From assembly GCF_002585305.1 (NCBI RefSeq), contig NZ_NUNF01000021.1, positions 28,133 through 92,132 of the forward strand: a DNA stretch of 64,000 nt, given 5' to 3'. A model generated the notes under the pieces. It was not told where the DNA came from. It worked only from the letters and a program-made list of their open reading frames with translations, and did not search any database. Numbering within the stretch: position 1 is the first letter of the stretch; the number at the start of each line of letters is the position of its first letter. Source of the DNA: Bacillus sp. AFS037270 (GTDB lineage Bacteria > Bacillota > Bacilli > Bacillales_B > DSM-18226). Shown piece by piece: positions 5,530 through 56,529 of this stretch. Made by a program: the position numbers and the translations under genes.

Positions 5530-6696
5530 ATGTTTGGTATCCAGACAAAGAAAGTGTTGTTACTCGGTTCTGGTGAGCTTGGTAAAGAGACGATCATCGA
5601 GGCACAGCGGTTAGGACTTGAGACCATAGCTGTAGATAGATATGAAAACGCTCCGGCAATGCAGGTGGCCCATCGTTCCTATGTGGTGGGCATGCTCGAT
5701 GGAGAAGAACTTCGCAGAGTGATAGAACAAGAGAAGCCGGATTTGGTAGTTCCTGAAATTGAGGCAATCGCAACAGAAACCTTAATCGACCTTGAAAACG
5801 AAGGATTCCGTATTGTACCGACTGCTAAAGCAGTGAACTTGACCATGGATAGGGAAGGAATCCGACGCTTGGCAAGCGAAGAACTAGGGATTCCTACAGC
5901 AAAATATGCTTTTGCGAACACATTAGAGGAATTAAGGGATGCTGTAGAGGAAATCGGGATTCCATGCGTGATTAAACCAATCATGAGTTCATCTGGTAAA
6001 GGGCAAACCGTTTGCCGTTCGATAGAGGATGTAGAATGGTCTTGGAACGAGGCTATTTTAGGTGGAAGAGGCAAAAAAACTCGGGTGATTGTCGAGGAAT
6101 TTATCCATTTTGAATCGGAAATTACACTACTAACAGTCCGTTCCATTTCAGGAACAACCTACTGTGCTCCAATCGGACATGTCCAAAAAGATGGTGACTA
6201 TATTGAATCCTGGCAGCCGCATGACATGTCAACTGAACAAATCGCAAAAGCACAGGATATCGCCAAAAAAATCACCGATGCTCTTGGCGGGTACGGAATT
6301 TTTGGAGTTGAATTATTTCTTTCTCCACAAGGTGTTTATTTTAGTGAAGTATCACCACGGCCTCATGATACGGGGATGGTTACAATGGTAACACAGGACC
6401 TATCGGAATTTGCCTTACATGTAAGAGCAATTTTAGGCTACCCGATTCCATCTGTTCAGCTATTGAAACCAGGTGCAAGTCATACGATTAAAGCAACGAA
6501 GGAAAGTAATACCTACCGAATAGCTGGAATTTCTGAAAGCTTATCCATCCCAGATACACAGATAAGGGTCTTTGGAAAGCCGGTAACAAAAGTGGGACGA
6601 CGTATGGCAGTAGTGTTAAGCAGCGGAGAATCAGTCGAAGAAGCAAGGCAGCGAGCCGCAGTAGCAGCTAGCAAAATGATGGTTACTCACGACTAA
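5530..6696 (+). CDS. purT: Formate-dependent phosphoribosylglycinamide formyltransferase (GAR transformylase 2)
   Basis: ATP-grasp enzyme that uses formate and ATP to formylate GAR in purine synthesis, bypassing 10-formyl-tetrahydrofolate. Features: N-terminal [10 protein letters not shown], the ATP-grasp region with [13 protein letters not shown] near residue 150, FGVELF and [16 protein letters not shown] around residues 260-285, and a C-terminal [11 protein letters not shown]. Start chosen at ATG 5530, 9 nt after AAGGGG; TTG 5521 abuts that site and is unlikely. 388 residues, the usual length. A purine-repressor-like site lies upstream. The next gene is a probable formate/oxalate-type transporter, which fits the need for formate. 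Confidence 0.95.
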
Positions 6697-6754
6697 GTAC
6701 GATTTGAAATCAACTCACAGCTTGGAAATACAACATGAAAAAGGGGACGGAAGG

Positions 6755-8026
6755 ATGCAAACAAAAAATCGGTGGTTGATCGCTCTTTCAGCCGTTGGAA
6801 TTCATATTTCAATTGGTTCAGTTTATGCCTGGAGTGTTTTTACAAAACCGCTACAAGAACAGATGGGATGGGGATTGAAGCAAATTTCGTTTACGTTTAG
6901 CTTGGCGATTCTATTTTTAGGGTTATCAGCCGCTTTTTTAGGGCACTTTGTCGAGAAGTTTGGACCGAGAGCGGCTGGTATACTTAGCGCTCTATTTTTT
7001 GGAGTTGGAATTGCTGGGGCAGGTTTAGCCATTCATTTAGAATCATTGCTATTACTCTATTTATTTTATGGTATGATTGCAGGAATTGGCTTGGGGGTTG
7101 GTTACATCACACCTGTTTCCACGCTGGTAAAGTGGTTCCCTGACAGGAGAGGTCTCGCAACTGGACTAGCCATCATGGGATTTGGTTTTGCTTCATTGGT
7201 AAGTAGTCCGATTATGAATCATTTAATCGAAACATATGGCATTTCAAACACTTTCTATATTCTTGGTTCTGCCTACTTCATTATCATCTTTTGTTCTGCA
7301 CAGTATCTTGCGCCGCCAAAAGAGGGATGGCTCCCTAAGGGCCTAGAAGCTGCAGCCCAAAAGTCCGGTACGATGAAAATGAAAGAAGACCTCCGTCAGT
7401 TGACCGCCAATGAGGCAGTCAGAACAAGACAGTTTTGGGCCTTGTGGTTGATGCTTTTTATCAATATTACCTGTGGAATCGCGATTCTTTCGGTTGCCTC
7501 TCCAATGGCTCAAGAGTTAGCAGGGATGTCGGCTGCCGGAGCAGCGGCAATGGTTGGAATCATGGGGTTATTTAACGGTTCAGGAAGGATTGCTTGGGCG
7601 ACCATTTCCGATTACATCGGAAGGCCAAATGTTTACACGCTATTTTTTGCTTTTCAAATCGTTGCCTTTTTTAGTCTGCCAAATATAACAGTTGGAATTC
7701 TGTTTTCTATTATTGTTTATATGATAATGACTTGTTATGGAGGAGGATTTGCCTCTATACCTGCCTTTATCGGCGATTTATTCGGAACAAAGCAGCTTGG
7801 GGCCATTCATGGCTACATTTTGACTGCCTGGGCTGCAGCTGGTCTAGTGGGTCCAATCTTTGTATCCTGGGTCAGGGAGACCACTGGAAGCTATCAGGGG
7901 ACTTTAGTCATTTTTTCAGGGATATTTGTAATAGCGCTAGCCGTTTCACTCCTCATTCGTCTAGATATTAGAAAATTAAGGACGAAGAGCGAAAATCAAA
8001 TCATTAAAAAAGCGGGTAATTTTTAA
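6755..8026 (+). CDS. MFS transporter, OFA (oxalate/formate antiporter) family
   Basis: 423-residue, 12-segment major facilitator of the oxalate/formate antiporter-like group. Typical features are the first segment with ISIGSVYAWSVFTKPL, the loop GHFVEKFGPR, the segment GIGLGVGYITPVSTLVKWFPDRRGLATG, and GNGSGRIAW-like NGSGRIAWATISDYIGR in the second half. Start taken as ATG 6755, with AAGGGG 8 nt upstream, rather than 51 nt further out. It begins 58 nt after purT and probably shares its message, so formate or a related small carboxylate is an attractive substrate, but OFA-family members also carry oxalate or other carboxylates and the substrate cannot be read from the sequence. A strong terminator follows. 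Confidence 0.85.
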   Translation: MQTKNRWLIALSAVGIHISIGSVYAWSVFTKPLQEQMGWGLKQISFTFSLAILFLGLSAAFLGHFVEKFGPRAAGILSALFFGVGIAGAGLAIHLESLLLLYLFYGMIAGIGLGVGYITPVSTLVKWFPDRRGLATGLAIMGFGFASLVSSPIMNHLIETYGISNTFYILGSAYFIIIFCSAQYLAPPKEGWLPKGLEAAAQKSGTMKMKEDLRQLTANEAVRTRQFWALWLMLFINITCGIAILSVASPMAQELAGMSAAGAAAMVGIMGLFNGSGRIAWATISDYIGRPNVYTLFFAFQIVAFFSLPNITVGILFSIIVYMIMTCYGGGFASIPAFIGDLFGTKQLGAIHGYILTAWAAAGLVGPIFVSWVRETTGSYQGTLVIFSGIFVIALAVSLLIRLDIRKLRTKSENQIIKKAGNF

Positions 8027-28031: not shown

Positions 28032-28069
28032 TATTATCTCTTAAAATTACATATGAATTTGTTAACAAT

Positions 28070-28240
28070 TAGTTAAGATGCCTTAGGGCTTAATAGGGAA
28101 TCTGGTGCAATACCAGAACTGTCCCCGCAACTGTGAGTGTGGACGAAATAGACAAACCACTGAGACGTATTTATGGACGATACGGGAAGGGTCTAGAGTA
28201 GGAAGATACACAAGTCAGGAGACCTGTCTTAGCTTTTAAA
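28070..28240 (+). ncRNA. Cobalamin riboswitch 1
   Basis: Contains the conserved core GGTGCAATACCAGAACTG-type segment with TCCCCGCAACTGTGAG (28121-28136) and the B12 box AAGTCAGGAGACCTGTCT at 28212-28229. Expected to bind adenosyl- or other cobalamin and favour the terminator at 28325-28355. Confidence 0.92.
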
Positions 28241-28324
28241 GTTTCGATTTCTTCGGGGGTTGAGAAGATGGAACGTTTGGACAAAAAGGATTATTGATTA
28301 ATTTTCTTTTTGTGCTGACGTTTT

Positions 28325-28355: not shown

Positions 28356-28436
28356 CATTTGGATGATTCTAAACCATTTTTAATTCTCATAGGTTAGCTT
28401 TAGAAGAAACAAGCCTTTTTAACAATTGAATAGATT

Positions 28437-28600
28437 AGGATAGGTGCGCATTTAAAATATGTGCTTAATAGGGAAGTACGGTTAAAATCCGTCACGGTAC
28501 CCGCCACTGTATGGGGAGTTCGTTGCAGATGTCACTGAAGGAATTCGGGAAGACGCAATGGAATGATGAACCTAAGTCAGGAGACCTGCCTTTACCTAAG
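28437..28600 (+). ncRNA. Cobalamin riboswitch 2
   Basis: A second copy: AATAGGGAAGTACGGTTAAA, ACCCGCCACTGT (28499-28510) and B12 box AAGTCAGGAGACCTGCCT at 28574-28591. It differs from riboswitch 1 in the peripheral stems, so it is not a recent duplicate. Confidence 0.92.
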
Positions 28601-28674
28601 AGCTTCATCAACCTACGGGAACATAGGTAGAAGTGCGGAACATACATCGCTATTTTTTTATGTGTATATATTCT

Positions 28675-51330: not shown

Positions 51331-51504
51331 TCGTCCACTAATTTACTAATGACGTATCGACATGGAAAGGTATTGGAAATACTAACGCAAGTTCATTAAA
51401 CATTACTATATCTTTTATAGCAACATACTAAACGAAGTGGAATATTGAACCTTTACTTCCATCTATTTAAGAGTTATTATTAACTGAATCTAATAAATAT
51501 ACCA

Positions 51505-51604
51505 TACTACTAGGGGTGCCCCTTGACGGGCTGAGAGAAAAACAAATGTTTTTTAACCCTTTGGACCTGATCTGGATCATACCAGCGTAGGAAAGTAGCT
51601 TAAG
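51505..51604 (+). ncRNA. TPP riboswitch (THI element)
   Basis: Contains GGGGTGCCCC, CTGAGAG, ACCCTTTGGACCTGATCTGG and ATACCAGCGTAGGAAAG in the order and spacing of the thiamine pyrophosphate aptamer, with TACTA/AGTAG-type closing helix. Followed 31 nt later by a terminator. Confidence 0.97.
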
Positions 51605-51634
51605 TGGAAGACAATTTATTTCATAAGCTGCGGA

Positions 51635-51664
51635 GCCAGGTCCATTATTGGACCTGGCTTTTTC
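51635..51664 (+). terminator. Terminator of the TPP riboswitch
   Basis: AGCCAGGTCC pairs perfectly with GGACCTGGCT across 6 nt and is followed by TTTCTT. Expected to form when TPP is bound. Confidence 0.92.
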
Positions 51665-51822
51665 TTATAGAAAAAACAGCAGAAAGCCTTTTTGAAAAAT
51701 AACAAAGAATCACCTAAAACCGGAAAAACAAAGATGAGTCGCTTCAAATCCCAATCTATTAAATAGGGATGGAATGTCGATTAATCCTTTATAAATAGAT
51801 AAACAGAGAAGGAGATTACATC

Positions 51823-53151
51823 ATGGAAAAGATACAAGAAGTGAATAGTATGAGTAACAAAGAAATGAATATTGGTTTGGAGGAGAAACTCCCTGCATGG
51901 AAAACTTTTTTATATGCTTTACAGCATATTTGTGTGTCAAACGTATGGCTTGATCCTATTTTTGTCGCGGCGATGATTGGTTTACCTCTATCACAATCGG
52001 CTAATATCGTTAATGCTATATTTATTACGGCTGGAATCGTTACCTTGACACAAGCTACTAAATTAGTAAAATTGCCAATTATTCAAGGCCCATCGGCTGC
52101 CTTTGATTCCATTATGATTGCTTCAGGAAAGGCGAACGGCTTAGCTGCAGCGAGTGGCGGTATTTTTCTTAGTTCAATTATCGTTTTTCTATTGTCTATT
52201 ACCGGAGTAATTGGCCGTTTGAGAGTCATATTTACACCTGTTATTTCTGGCACAGTCATCTTTCTGGTTGGAGTATCATTATCTGGCTTTACCTTGTACG
52301 AATTTTTAGGAGGTTCACCTGGTGATGAGTCGTTTGCCAGCCCATCCACATTAATACTATCGATTTCCACTTCAATTATTGTTATTTTATTATCTCTTTT
52401 TGGGAAAGGCATTTGGAAATCATATTCCTTCTTAATTGCTCTCGTTATTGGGGATGTCCTTGCTGCCATTTTAGGGAAGACCAATTTTTCTTTGATAGAT
52501 AGTAAACCGTGGTTCGGGATTCCACAGCTGCTTCCCTATGGAAATTTAACTTTTCATTGGGACACGTTTCTTACATTTTTTGTGGCCTATTTGGTAGCGA
52601 TTATCGAAGCAATGGGTGTCTATCAAGCAGCAGGCGCGATGCTAAATACCGAAATAGATTCCAAACGAATTCGCAATGGATTTGCAGGTGAATCCGCCGG
52701 TTCATTCCTCTCCTCGCTTATTGGCGGTTTCCCTACCACAGCTTATGCACAAAATGTGGGGCTTCTTAGGTTGACGGGTGTCGGATCAAGATTTCCGGTG
52801 ATGGTGGCAGGTGCCATTTTCTTGTTATTCGGTTTTTTTCCAAAGATCGGGGCCTTGCTTGCATTAACACCTGATGCGGTTGTTGGAGGTATCTTTTTAC
52901 CTGCTGCAGCGACGCTTGTATCAACTGGGATTTCTATTTTAGGAAGAGCGGAGCATTCAGAAAAAAACTATTTGATTATGGGGCTTTCCATTCTGCTTGC
53001 GATTTCACTGCCAAACTATGCCACGAATCTGAAAGGAATCGTAGGTACATTCCTTTCTAACAGTATATTAATCGGGGCATTTTCATCGGTGCTGCTTCAA
53101 TTGTTGCTTGTAAACATACCCAATAGACTGAAAAGAGGGACTCTAAAATGA
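51823..53151 (+). CDS. NCS2-family nucleobase-type permease under TPP control
   Basis: 442 residues with about 12-14 membrane segments. Characteristic regions: ALQHICVSNVWLDPIFVAA, QGPSAAFDSIMIASG, the signature-like FVAYLVAIIEAMGVYQAAGAML and SFLSSLIGGFPTTAYAQNVGLLRLTGVGSR, typical of the xanthine/uracil permease (NCS2) superfamily. GAAGGAG lies 8 nt before the ATG. First gene after a TPP riboswitch and overlapping the next gene by ATGA, so it probably imports a thiamine-related compound, such as a pyrimidine or its acid, rather than uracil or xanthine; that substrate assignment is inference. Confidence 0.88.
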   Translation: MEKIQEVNSMSNKEMNIGLEEKLPAWKTFLYALQHICVSNVWLDPIFVAAMIGLPLSQSANIVNAIFITAGIVTLTQATKLVKLPIIQGPSAAFDSIMIASGKANGLAAASGGIFLSSIIVFLLSITGVIGRLRVIFTPVISGTVIFLVGVSLSGFTLYEFLGGSPGDESFASPSTLILSISTSIIVILLSLFGKGIWKSYSFLIALVIGDVLAAILGKTNFSLIDSKPWFGIPQLLPYGNLTFHWDTFLTFFVAYLVAIIEAMGVYQAAGAMLNTEIDSKRIRNGFAGESAGSFLSSLIGGFPTTAYAQNVGLLRLTGVGSRFPVMVAGAIFLLFGFFPKIGALLALTPDAVVGGIFLPAAATLVSTGISILGRAEHSEKNYLIMGLSILLAISLPNYATNLKGIVGTFLSNSILIGAFSSVLLQLLLVNIPNRLKRGTLK

Positions 53152-54290
53152 GAGATGATTCCAAAATGCTAACCGAACAAATTCTTGAATTTATAAACAG
53201 TTGTGAAGAGGGGAAATTTACCCATCACGATGAACAGGAACATTCCTATAATGAGCTGGCGCTAAAATTGTTTCGTTACCAGTTCCAGCATAATCTGGCC
53301 TATAAGAAATTTTGCCAGACAAAAAAAAGGACGCCGCTTACCGTCAAAAGATGGGAGGATATACCTCCCATGCCCATTCAGGGATATAAAGAATTGACTT
53401 TATCTTGTGAGCTAATAGAAGAAGTGAAACACGTTTTTATGACCAGTGGTACCACAAACCCGGAGGCAAAGGGAAAAAATTATCATCCTGATCTTGCGGT
53501 ATGGGATGCATCAATGAAGGGACCTTTTAAGCGTTTTGTGCTGCCTGACCGTGAGAAAATCACCATTTTTGTTCTCTCACCTGCAGAAGATCTGAACAAA
53601 AATTCATCTTTATCTAGATATTTAACCAATGCGGTTTCCTTTTTCGGCACTGAAAATAGCAAATTCTTCTTTACTGATAAAGGACTGAATGTAGACGAGC
53701 TGATCAGGGATTTAAGATGGTGTGAGTCACAAAAGGAGCCTGTGCTGCTAATAGGGGCCACTTTTGCATTTGTACATATCATTGATGATCTAAAAGAAAA
53801 ACAACTTCAGTTCAAACTGGCAAAAGATAGCCGCATTTTTGATACAGGGGGCTTTAAGGGACAATCCCGTGAAGTGGAAATGGAGTATTTATATTCGGAG
53901 TTTCGTGAGTTTTTTGGGATTGGCCGCAATCAATGTATAAACATGTACGGAATGACTGAGCTAAGTTCTCAAATCTATGATCAAACCATACGAAGCACTT
54001 ATCTAAATCATTCTGAAATCTATGATAAAAAAAGTCCATCATGGGTTAAGACTGTTGTACTAAATACCGACACGTTAGAGCCGGTTAAGGATGGGGAAAG
54101 AGGCGTAATTGCACACTATGATCTTGCCAATTGGAATTCCTGTCTGGCTATTCTAACAGAAGATATGGGGTATAAAACGGAGCATGGATTTGTGCTGCTT
54201 GGGAGAATAAAGGGTTCCGAGGCAAGAGGTTGTTCCATTGCGGTTGACCAGCTTATGCAAGTAAATTCAGGTGGTGTGAATCAGCAGTGA
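53148..54290 (+). CDS. LuxE-type acyl-protein synthetase (carboxylate-activating)
   Basis: 380 residues, adenylate-forming family. VFMTSGTTNPEAKGK (98-103 core) is the phosphate-binding loop, INMYGMTELSSQIYD the A5-like motif, and Cys362 in ARGCSIAV occupies the place of the C-terminal cysteine that carries the acyl group in LuxE of luminous bacteria. Such enzymes activate a carboxylic acid with ATP and pass it to the reductase LuxC, encoded next. No luxA, luxB or luxD is present. Overlaps the permease gene by ATGA and luxC-like gene by GTGA, with AAAGAGGGA as ribosome site. Confidence 0.85.
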   Translation: MRDDSKMLTEQILEFINSCEEGKFTHHDEQEHSYNELALKLFRYQFQHNLAYKKFCQTKKRTPLTVKRWEDIPPMPIQGYKELTLSCELIEEVKHVFMTSGTTNPEAKGKNYHPDLAVWDASMKGPFKRFVLPDREKITIFVLSPAEDLNKNSSLSRYLTNAVSFFGTENSKFFFTDKGLNVDELIRDLRWCESQKEPVLLIGATFAFVHIIDDLKEKQLQFKLAKDSRIFDTGGFKGQSREVEMEYLYSEFREFFGIGRNQCINMYGMTELSSQIYDQTIRSTYLNHSEIYDKKSPSWVKTVVLNTDTLEPVKDGERGVIAHYDLANWNSCLAILTEDMGYKTEHGFVLLGRIKGSEARGCSIAVDQLMQVNSGGVNQQ

Positions 54291-55747
54291 ATAATATCAA
54301 GGAACTGAACGTTTTCAGTGTACCGGATTCGATTGAATTAAACGAATTTCGTTCAAAAACAGTTATAGGAAAGGACATGACGTTTGTATTAAAATTCCCT
54401 GTGATCACAGGAGAAGAATTGAAGGGAATCATTCAACAAGTTCAATGGAATCGGGACCAATATCTATCCACTTTATCCATTACAGATATTGTGGAAAAAA
54501 TAGACTTGGCCGTGCAAAAATGGCTTCATCCTGACTATCCGCTCAGAAAATTAGCGGAAAATCTGATCCCTATGATTACTGGTTATGATGAAGAAATGGT
54601 GCGGCTTCAATTAAAAAGGTATATACGGACCTTTCGTAAAAAGGAATTGCTGCGCTTTCTAGACGAGGAGTTTGACCAGCCCGCGATGTTGGATGAGTTT
54701 CGCCCTCGAAAATCAGGAGGTATGAGCAAAGCCTTTGGACCAAGTACCATATTCCATGTTTTCTCAGGGAATGTTCCGGGAGTACAGGTATGGAGTATCA
54801 TCATGGGGCTTTTGGTCAAGTCAGGGAATATAGGGAAAACCTCCATGGCTGAACCACTGTTCCCCGTTCTCTTTACGGAGTCGTTAGCGGAGGTAGATAA
54901 AAAACTGGCTGAAACCATCGCCATTCTCCCTTGGAAGGGCGGGATGATTGAACTAGAAGAGCCGGCCATCGAACACTGCGAGGCGGTGATTGTATACGGT
55001 TCAAATGAAACTGTTGAAAAGCTAAGACGGAAGGTTCCTCCACATAAAAGGTTTTTGAGCTACGGACATAAAATCAGCTTTGCCTACATCGGAAAAGAAG
55101 CATTAACTCCTGATCTTTACTATGACACCATCAAAAAGATGGCTGAAGATGTGTCTATCTACGACCAACAAAGCTGTTTATCTCCTCAAACAATTTATGT
55201 GGAAGAGGGAGGGTCCATAAGTTCAAAGCAATTTGCTCAGATGTTGGGAGCGGAACTAGAACGTTATCATAAAAAAAGACCACGAGCAAAGCTTAAGGAT
55301 GAAGAATCGATGGCCATTCAACGGGTAAGAAGCCGCTATCAGCTGGAATCCGTCCAACATGAAAACGTGGCCGTTTTCTCTAGTCATGCAGACACATCCT
55401 GGACAGTCATTTTTCACAAAGAAACTGGATTTGAAGGTTCCCCTTTAAATCGGTTAGTTCATGTATACTCAGTCGAATCTGTGGAAAGTGTGCTATCTGC
55501 CATTAAGCCTTATCAGCCATATTTACAATCGTGCGGTCTGGCTGTTTCTCCAATCAGACTTTTTTCACTCGCCAATCAATTAGGAACATACGGTGTAAAT
55601 AGAATATGTTCGATCGGCGAAATGAATCAGGCAAAACCAGGATGGCACCATGATGGCGGGTTTAATCTTCTCGATCTTGTTAGGATGACAGATATCGAAA
55701 GGAATCTAGAGCAAATTGTTGAACGGTATGATACAGATTTTGAATAG
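54287..55747 (+). CDS. LuxC-type acyl reductase
   Basis: 486 residues, aldehyde-dehydrogenase fold. Cys297 in YDQQSCLSPQTIYVEEGG is the catalytic residue that takes the acyl group; FHVFSGNVPGVQVWSIIMGLL and KTSMAEPLFPVLF belong to the NADPH-binding part. In luminous bacteria LuxC reduces fatty acyl groups to aldehydes with LuxE. Here, the operon setting under a TPP riboswitch suggests a different acid. GTG start within the end of the luxE-like gene; the next gene begins 14 nt after the stop. Confidence 0.87.
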   Translation: MNNIKELNVFSVPDSIELNEFRSKTVIGKDMTFVLKFPVITGEELKGIIQQVQWNRDQYLSTLSITDIVEKIDLAVQKWLHPDYPLRKLAENLIPMITGYDEEMVRLQLKRYIRTFRKKELLRFLDEEFDQPAMLDEFRPRKSGGMSKAFGPSTIFHVFSGNVPGVQVWSIIMGLLVKSGNIGKTSMAEPLFPVLFTESLAEVDKKLAETIAILPWKGGMIELEEPAIEHCEAVIVYGSNETVEKLRRKVPPHKRFLSYGHKISFAYIGKEALTPDLYYDTIKKMAEDVSIYDQQSCLSPQTIYVEEGGSISSKQFAQMLGAELERYHKKRPRAKLKDEESMAIQRVRSRYQLESVQHENVAVFSSHADTSWTVIFHKETGFEGSPLNRLVHVYSVESVESVLSAIKPYQPYLQSCGLAVSPIRLFSLANQLGTYGVNRICSIGEMNQAKPGWHHDGGFNLLDLVRMTDIERNLEQIVERYDTDFE

Positions 55748-55761
55748 AAGGAGGGCTACCT

Positions 55762-56529
55762 TTGAATTTGCAGGATAAAATTGTATTAATTACGGGAGCA
55801 AGCAGGGGGATTGGCGCAGAGATGGCGAGAAGGTTTGCTGCGGAAGGTTCATTTGTGGTGGTCAATTATTTGAAGAATCAAGCCCTTGCCGAAAGTGTGG
55901 TAAGTGAAATAGAGTCATTGGGAGGGCAGGCAGCCGCTATACAGGCTGACGTAACAAATAGGAATCAGGTAAATGAAATGATGGAACAAATGATCGATTC
56001 CCTTGGAGCAATTGATGTTGTGGTAAATAATGCACTAAGTCATTATACCTTTAATCCAAAAACCAGGAAAACGGCGTGGGAAATCGACTGGGAAGATTAC
56101 AACCAACAATGGACAGGGAGTGTACAGGGGGCATTTAACATTTGCAAGGCGGCTATGCCTCACATGAAGAATCAAATGTCAGGAAGAATCATCAATATGG
56201 TTAGTAATTTAATAGATTTTCCTATTGTTCCTTATCATGACTATACAACCGCAAAGATGGCATTACTAGGTTTCACCAGAAATCTCGCCCAAGAACTAGG
56301 AACATTCGGTATTAATGTGAATGCTGTTTCTCCTGGACTAACCTATCCAACAGACTCAAGCCAGGAGACAAAGGAAGAGGTGAGAGATGCCATTATTCAG
56401 TTAACCCCTTTACGCCGATTGGCTCGGCCAGAGGATATCGCCGGAAGTGTATTATTTCTCGCTTCTGATTTATCCTCTTTTATTACTGGACAATGCCTGA
56501 ATGTAGATGGTGGCTTGGTCATGAAATGA
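55762..56529 (+). CDS. SDR family oxidoreductase of the TPP-controlled operon
   Basis: 255 residues, classical SDR: TGASRGIG at 11-18, VVNNALSHY (the usual NNAG with Ala-Leu), catalytic Ser in MVSNLIDFP, Tyr-x3-Lys in YTTAK, and a terminal LNVDGGLVMK. TTG start 5 nt after AAGGAGGG. Last gene of the permease-LuxE-LuxC operon; reduction of the aldehyde made by LuxC to an alcohol would complete an acid-to-alcohol route. Commonly mislabelled as FabG; substrate unknown. Confidence 0.87.
   Translation: MNLQDKIVLITGASRGIGAEMARRFAAEGSFVVVNYLKNQALAESVVSEIESLGGQAAAIQADVTNRNQVNEMMEQMIDSLGAIDVVVNNALSHYTFNPKTRKTAWEIDWEDYNQQWTGSVQGAFNICKAAMPHMKNQMSGRIINMVSNLIDFPIVPYHDYTTAKMALLGFTRNLAQELGTFGINVNAVSPGLTYPTDSSQETKEEVRDAIIQLTPLRRLARPEDIAGSVLFLASDLSSFITGQCLNVDGGLVMK

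Follow-up and report, generated by a model that had tools for sequence, protein, structure and literature searches.

The described systems for salvage of thiamine precursors under the control of thiamine pyrophosphate (TPP) riboswitches comprise CytX, ThiXYZ, YkoEDC, ThiW, TenA and ThiM/ThiD/ThiE. LuxE and LuxC are familiar from bioluminescence, where they act on fatty acids; LuxE spends ATP on the activation of the acid. NCS2 proteins are carriers of nucleobases. Here we analysed a stretch of 64,000 nucleotides from Bacillus sp. AFS037270 (contig NZ_NUNF01000021.1, positions 28,133 to 92,132), referred to as the window, in which a TPP riboswitch precedes genes for an NCS2 permease, LuxE, LuxC and a short-chain dehydrogenase/reductase (SDR). 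This operon and its link to thiamine are real and widely conserved. The operon probably serves the TPP-repressed salvage of an oxidised thiamine fragment, for which the best candidate is 4-amino-2-methylpyrimidine-5-carboxylate, the acid that corresponds to hydroxymethylpyrimidine (HMP), the pyrimidine moiety of thiamine.

The leader of the operon contains an aptamer on the plus strand at positions 51502-51610 that matches the TPP riboswitch family RF00059 with 82.3 bits (E = 9.8e-15), exceeding the Rfam gathering score of 54.3 bits. The aptamer is matched as well by R1, a covariance model of our own that had this sequence among its inputs. The aptamer is followed by an intrinsic terminator-like hairpin of 13 pairs with a T-rich tail (51632-51661, plus strand), and the stretch 51502-51672 has a folding z-score of -4.9 relative to shuffled sequences. 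A plus-strand segment within the aptamer, GGACCTG (51563-51569), is the complement of CAGGTCC in the 5' arm of the terminator (51637-51643) and has the same letters as the terminator 3' arm. Pairing of the two segments without TPP could thus produce an antiterminator, as in the usual switch, and the combination of aptamer and terminator predicts TPP control of the operon. Four plus-strand genes follow, encoding an NCS2 nucleobase-type permease (51823-53151), a LuxE-type acyl-protein synthetase (53148-54290), a LuxC-type acyl reductase (54287-55747, GTG start) and an SDR (55762-56529, TTG start), for which we propose the roles of acid import, ATP-dependent carboxylate activation, conversion of the thioester to an aldehyde and reduction of the aldehyde to an alcohol, respectively. 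Both the aptamer with its terminator and the four genes with ATGA, GTGA and 14-nt junctions had been described in the original prediction, and the sequence searches and open reading frame (ORF) calls confirmed them.

To quantify the conservation of this arrangement, we gathered 71 genome loci using a LuxC alignment of 26 rows. The R1 model takes its sequences from the window and from 12 loci of this set, and these 12 consequently match by construction. With this model, a TPP aptamer was found upstream of LuxE/LuxC on the operon strand in 52 of the 71 loci, eight of which carry tandem aptamer pairs. In an independent check with the Rfam model, the aptamer scored above the gathering score in 27 of the 33 loci tested, and among the six loci below it, L014, L045 and L049 still matched at E-values below 5e-6, while L025 and L030 matched with our own model only and L058 matched with neither. 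The order NCS2-LuxE-LuxC-SDR is present in 44 of the 71 loci, with LuxE split over two ORFs in L028 and L037. An aptamer is located upstream in 43 of these 44, and the last, L015, has just 323 bases before the NCS2 ORF. The 19 loci without an aptamer consist of five in which fewer than 450 bases precede the first operon gene (L015, L019, L044, L048 and L052), L058, and 13 further deep relatives that mostly belong to the Gemmatimonadota.

From the 263 aptamers present in about 210 Mb of sequence (50 genomes), the chance of finding an aptamer on the same strand within 8 kb upstream was estimated to be about 0.5% per locus, and chance is therefore no explanation for the linkage seen in 52 of the 71 loci. 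In a LuxC tree of 68 rows, inferred without the partial rows L019, L044, L063 and L068, the presence of the aptamer required 4 changes as compared to 14.6 in shuffles. Conservation with TPP riboswitches, the absence of which had been named as grounds for abandoning the original prediction, was thus observed in 52 genome loci and additionally in nine plasmid regions.

The operons of some relatives include genes for thiamine biosynthesis, which together with the TPP control supports the suspected thiamine link and a place of the system among those for thiamine precursor salvage. Matches to Pfam and NCBIfam models identified ThiM, ThiD and ThiE in L007 and ThiW in L002 as neighbours of the four genes, and thi genes in the other loci were assigned by clustering with these proteins. 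The order TPP-thiM-thiD-thiE-NCS2-LuxE-LuxC-SDR was seen in L012, L025, L030 and L049, while in L007 and L008 the SDR gene is followed by thiM-thiD-thiE. In Paenibacillus nasutitermitis (L031), the operon genes are preceded by a TenI/ThiE-family gene, ThiO, ThiG and a ThiF-like gene and followed by ThiD and ThiE. In Niallia sp. NCCP-28 (L003), an NCS2 remnant is located between ThiW and LuxE (6618-6841), at the place where its relative L002 has NCS2.

In other relatives, a different protein of similar role is found in the position of the transporter or of the final reductase. NCS2 gives way to an ABC importer whose binding protein is of the NMT1/THI5 type in L014, L017, L021, L060 and the plasmid regions L082, L084 and L088, and an ABC ATPase and permease are present in L045. 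All four NMT1 proteins searched (L014, L060, L082 and L084) matched 3ix1, an N-formyl-aminomethylpyrimidine-binding protein, with E-values of 2e-14 to 6e-7. In L047, L050 and L068, the aptamer is separated from LuxE by a gene for a zinc alcohol dehydrogenase, and in a Chloroflexota metagenome-assembled genome (MAG; L045) the zinc alcohol dehydrogenase and LuxE domains are fused in a single ORF (5683-7845) behind the TPP aptamer. No SDR relative was found after LuxC in L045, L047 and L050, and the L068 contig stops within LuxC. Such exchanges preserve the roles of importer, acid activation, reduction to the aldehyde and reduction to the alcohol.

The residues expected to be needed for this chemistry are conserved. 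Cys297 of LuxC is invariant in all 26 aligned proteins and falls on the segment YDQQACFS when aligned to the solved LuxC structure 7xc6_A, and Cys362 of LuxE, which is aligned to a C-terminal cysteine of the solved LuxE 7xc6_E, is kept in 26 of 27. We take both to be the cysteines that carry the acyl group. In the SDR, Y161 and K165 are invariant in all 20 aligned proteins. The conserved cysteines and the role-preserving replacements support uptake, activation and a two-step reduction from acid to alcohol that feeds into TPP synthesis, which is the logic that had been proposed from the window sequence. The conversion of acid to alcohol is well supported by family membership and by the functional replacements; it is from the protein families that we infer the chemistry and its direction.

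At the level of families, the window permease is a clear match to PF00860 (261.5 bits, cut-off 27) and exceeds the cut-off of NF037981 (104.5 versus 40), while its score against the NCBIfam superfamily model TIGR00801 falls below the cut-off (242.8 versus 291.8). It also stayed below the cut-off for the xanthine permease PbuX (TIGR03173, 343.6 bits versus 414.15). LuxE and LuxC matched PF04443 (99 bits) and PF05893 (391 bits), respectively, and the SDR matched PF13561/PF00106 and scored above the cut-off of NF006393. The equivalog models for the true bioluminescence proteins were far from reached, with 127.9 bits versus a cut-off of 750 for LuxC (NF052251) and 78.6 versus 550 for LuxE (NF052244). 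The closest named LuxC is that of Neobacillus cucumis (97%).

Taken as a pathway, the operon would function as follows. When TPP is scarce, the riboswitch would avoid termination, and the NCS2 permease, or elsewhere the NMT1/THI5-type ABC importer, would take up the acid. LuxE would adenylate the carboxylate and keep it on a cysteine, from where the acyl group would pass to the cysteine of LuxC for reduction to the aldehyde. The SDR, or elsewhere the zinc alcohol dehydrogenase, would reduce the aldehyde to HMP, which ThiD would phosphorylate and ThiE couple with thiazole phosphate.

To examine which thiamine fragment is the likely substrate, we searched for thi genes in 48 of 50 genomes, after removal of G046 and G047 in which LuxC is not linked to TPP; 21 of the 71 loci fall outside this sample. 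ThiD was present in all 48 genomes, ThiE in 47, ThiM in 44, full-length ThiG in 43 and a thiamine pyrophosphokinase above the cut-off in 42. The four genomes that lack ThiM are G026, a MAG of 1.3 Mb that also lacks ThiG and is the only genome without ThiE, and G029 (P. nasutitermitis), G042 and G045, which have ThiG, ThiD and ThiE and neither ThiM nor ThiC. Since use of the thiazole depends on ThiM, its alcohol would lead nowhere in these three genomes. Provided that there is one shared substrate and that the absences are real, only the pyrimidine product could be usable in all genomes but G026. Of the three substrates considered in the original prediction, gene presence thus favours the pyrimidine carboxylate over thiazole acetic acid and thiamine acetic acid. 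No TenA was found in G029.

Another expectation, that the operon co-occurs with loss of ThiC, did not hold. Among ThiG-positive genomes, ThiC was missing from 18 of 43 with the operon and, within the order to which G001 belongs, from 74 of 143 that have no LuxC (p = 0.30), and we discarded ThiC absence as support since genomes with ThiG and without ThiC made up 18 of 48 in the operon set and 76 of 199 in that order. The converse combination, ThiC without ThiG, was found in 0 of 48 and 0 of 199 genomes, respectively. The pattern is alike in the two sets and therefore does not discriminate.

Several observations weigh against salvage of the pyrimidine acid. Besides the lack of enrichment for ThiC loss, ThiC is present in 25 of the 48 operon genomes, two of the three informative genomes without ThiM are MAGs whose completeness is not established, and P. 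nasutitermitis has a second NMT1 protein under TPP control. The solutes carried by NMT1 proteins include others as well, and 3ix1 was never the top match of the NMT1 proteins in the variant operons, with either 4nmy or 3qsl scoring better. The LuxE of L017 has a serine at the position of the cysteine, and L058, with the order LuxE-LuxC-SDR, has no TPP aptamer even at an E-value of 0.05. LuxC relatives were found in only 7 of 199 genomes in the order of G001 (at an E-value of 1e-60), and given this rarity in the sampled order the route is accessory. Also the gene neighbourhoods contain contrary signals: as assigned by clustering, the SDR is directly followed by ThiM in L007, L008, L014 and L017 and by ThiD only in L015 and L031, and ThiW is located within the operon in L002, L003, L010 and L013. 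In L003, ThiW and the enzymes are kept and NCS2 has decayed.

These neighbourhoods would suit the same chemistry acting on the thiazole half of the vitamin, in which case the imported acid would be, for example, 4-methylthiazole-5-acetate, and its reduction would supply hydroxyethylthiazole to ThiM, which is available in 44 of the 48 genomes. We consider this unlikely because the permease belongs to a family of nucleobase carriers and because ThiM is absent from three genomes that keep ThiG, as well as from the small MAG G026. ThiW is named as a hydroxyethylthiazole transporter in the consulted part of PMC6593275 (the Pfam name is thiamine-precursor transporter). The ThiXYZ and CytX importers are tied to the pyrimidine in the parts consulted of PMC5627462, PMC6593275 and PMC5874261. 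A reduction of thiamine acetic acid to the whole vitamin would also fit a reductive route, and 42 of the 48 genomes could use free thiamine by way of the pyrophosphokinase. However, this enzyme was not above the cut-off in G014, G016, G019, G037, G042 and G045 (other thiamine kinases, such as ThiK, were not included in the search), and ThiM, ThiD and ThiE would be unneeded in the operons of relatives. Given also that the permease is of the nucleobase family, we regard reduction of the intact vitamin as very unlikely.

A further possibility is that a fatty or other unrelated acid is converted to an aldehyde or alcohol, and that the TPP control serves some other need. This would be in line with the known role of LuxE and LuxC and with a set of 14 loci from Gemmatimonadota and MAGs (L051-L057, L059, L061-L063, L066, L067 and L071) that have LuxC, in 11 cases together with LuxE, and no TPP aptamer. 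The Pfam neighbours of L055, L056, L061, L066 and L071 include no thi genes, and these loci perhaps represent another use of the LuxEC pair. For the riboswitch-linked operons, the retention of TPP control over several phyla, the nucleobase-type permease or NMT1 importer, the thi genes in some operons and the wide distance from the cut-offs of the NCBIfam models for true LuxE and LuxC make an unrelated acid quite unlikely. Finally, SDR and alcohol dehydrogenase reactions are reversible, and the enzymes could in principle operate in the oxidising direction or remove an antivitamin. The leader with aptamer and terminator predicts expression at low TPP, which fits with supply, and the use of ATP by LuxE for acid activation fits with reduction, so we hold this to be highly improbable. 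In L051, an ORF located about 4 kb beyond LuxC clusters with ThiD, as judged from the clustering only.

The operon also occurs on plasmids. LuxE relatives were identified in 42 of 72,556 plasmid records, of which 15 were distant (22-25% identity). Among the nine regions examined, which included Alpha- and Gammaproteobacteria, the TPP aptamer was recovered with the Rfam model in eight and with R1 in the ninth (L082), located upstream of LuxE or, in two lactobacilli, of NCS2. The plasmids of these two are small and distinct, one of 10.3 kb in Lactiplantibacillus plantarum (L080) and pLBN-5 in Levilactobacillus brevis (L085), yet both carry the TPP-NCS2-LuxE-LuxC-SDR cassette with identical protein accessions. 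As annotated, the order is LuxE-LuxC-ABC importer-SDR in Priestia megaterium, Azospirillum lipoferum and A. ramasamyi, and LuxE-LuxC-SDR in Pantoea. In A. brasilense the ORF sizes, and these only, are compatible with the order LuxE-LuxC-ABC importer-SDR, and in Pseudomonas silvicola the LuxE match is in three pieces. Two clusters of LuxC sequences with 99% and 72% identity to LuxC of Bifidobacterium catenulatum contained 2442 and 3581 sequences, respectively. A LuxC relative with 58% identity to that of the window (P0047) is labelled as Mycobacterium tuberculosis, perhaps due to contamination or mislabelling of the record. A phage origin was rejected, with a single weak LuxC match (22.5% identity) among 50,697 phage records.

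The surroundings of the operon in the window were also inspected. A gene for a HAD hydrolase (PF08282; 56730-57584), located 200 bases downstream of the SDR gene, was rejected as a member of the operon since it shared no family with the other loci (BLASTP clustering at E = 1e-15 and 60% of the length). Tandem cobalamin riboswitches (28059-28245 and 28425-28607; 109 and 105 bits) precede an extended series of plus-strand ORFs that ends with genes for a GHMP kinase, a nitroreductase-family protein and a NicO transporter just before the TPP operon.

We lean towards the view that the operon represents a previously undescribed, TPP-riboswitch-controlled branch of B1 metabolism, in which a LuxEC-based carboxylate reductase provides a route from the pyrimidine acid to HMP that is independent of ThiC, occurs in several phyla and is partly spread on plasmids. 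Such a branch would imply that bacteria truly use oxidised fragments of thiamine as a nutrient currency. Among the genes with a THI element, Rodionov in 2002 reportedly noted one for a homologue of 3-oxoacyl-ACP reductase (oarX). No paper on oarX was found in our literature search, and a partial prior notice of the SDR under this name is possible. Full-text searches yielded no description of the gene set among the matches listed, with the THI-element comparison of 2002, the RegPrecise tables and supplementary files outside their coverage. If this view is correct, LuxE and LuxC have a branch that works in vitamin salvage, in bacteria from soil, food and the gut, and thiamine salvage gains a reductive step. 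Predictions of auxotrophy that count only the known HMP transporters and ThiC would change, and the sharing of oxidised thiamine fragments as nutrients would be directly testable.

With the TPP-riboswitch systems for precursor salvage, the operon shares the predicted TPP control, the proposed import of a precursor and, in relatives, the joint operons with thiM, thiD and thiE, whereas the parts consulted of PMC6593275, PMC3766115, PMC5627462 and PMC5874261 name neither a step for activation and reduction of a carboxylate nor an NCS2 importer. The use of carboxythiazole similarly involves a carboxylated thiamine precursor, but this is a thiazole with the carboxyl group on ring C2, and no LuxE/LuxC route is mentioned in the portion of PMC5899164 consulted. 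Uptake of HMP or base-degraded thiamin by ThiXYZ followed by TenA salvage has in common with the variant operons the NMT1/THI5-like importers and HMP as the aim; according to the part of PMC5627462 seen, the substrate of TenA is an aminopyrimidine rather than a carboxylate, while the window operon has a reductive module. The LuxCE fatty acid reductase of bioluminescence (7xc6) shares the LuxE and LuxC homologues and their active cysteines. Unlike that system, the four genes of the window include no LuxD or luciferase gene, their products are far below the LuxE and LuxC equivalog cut-offs, and an importer, an SDR and TPP control are present instead.

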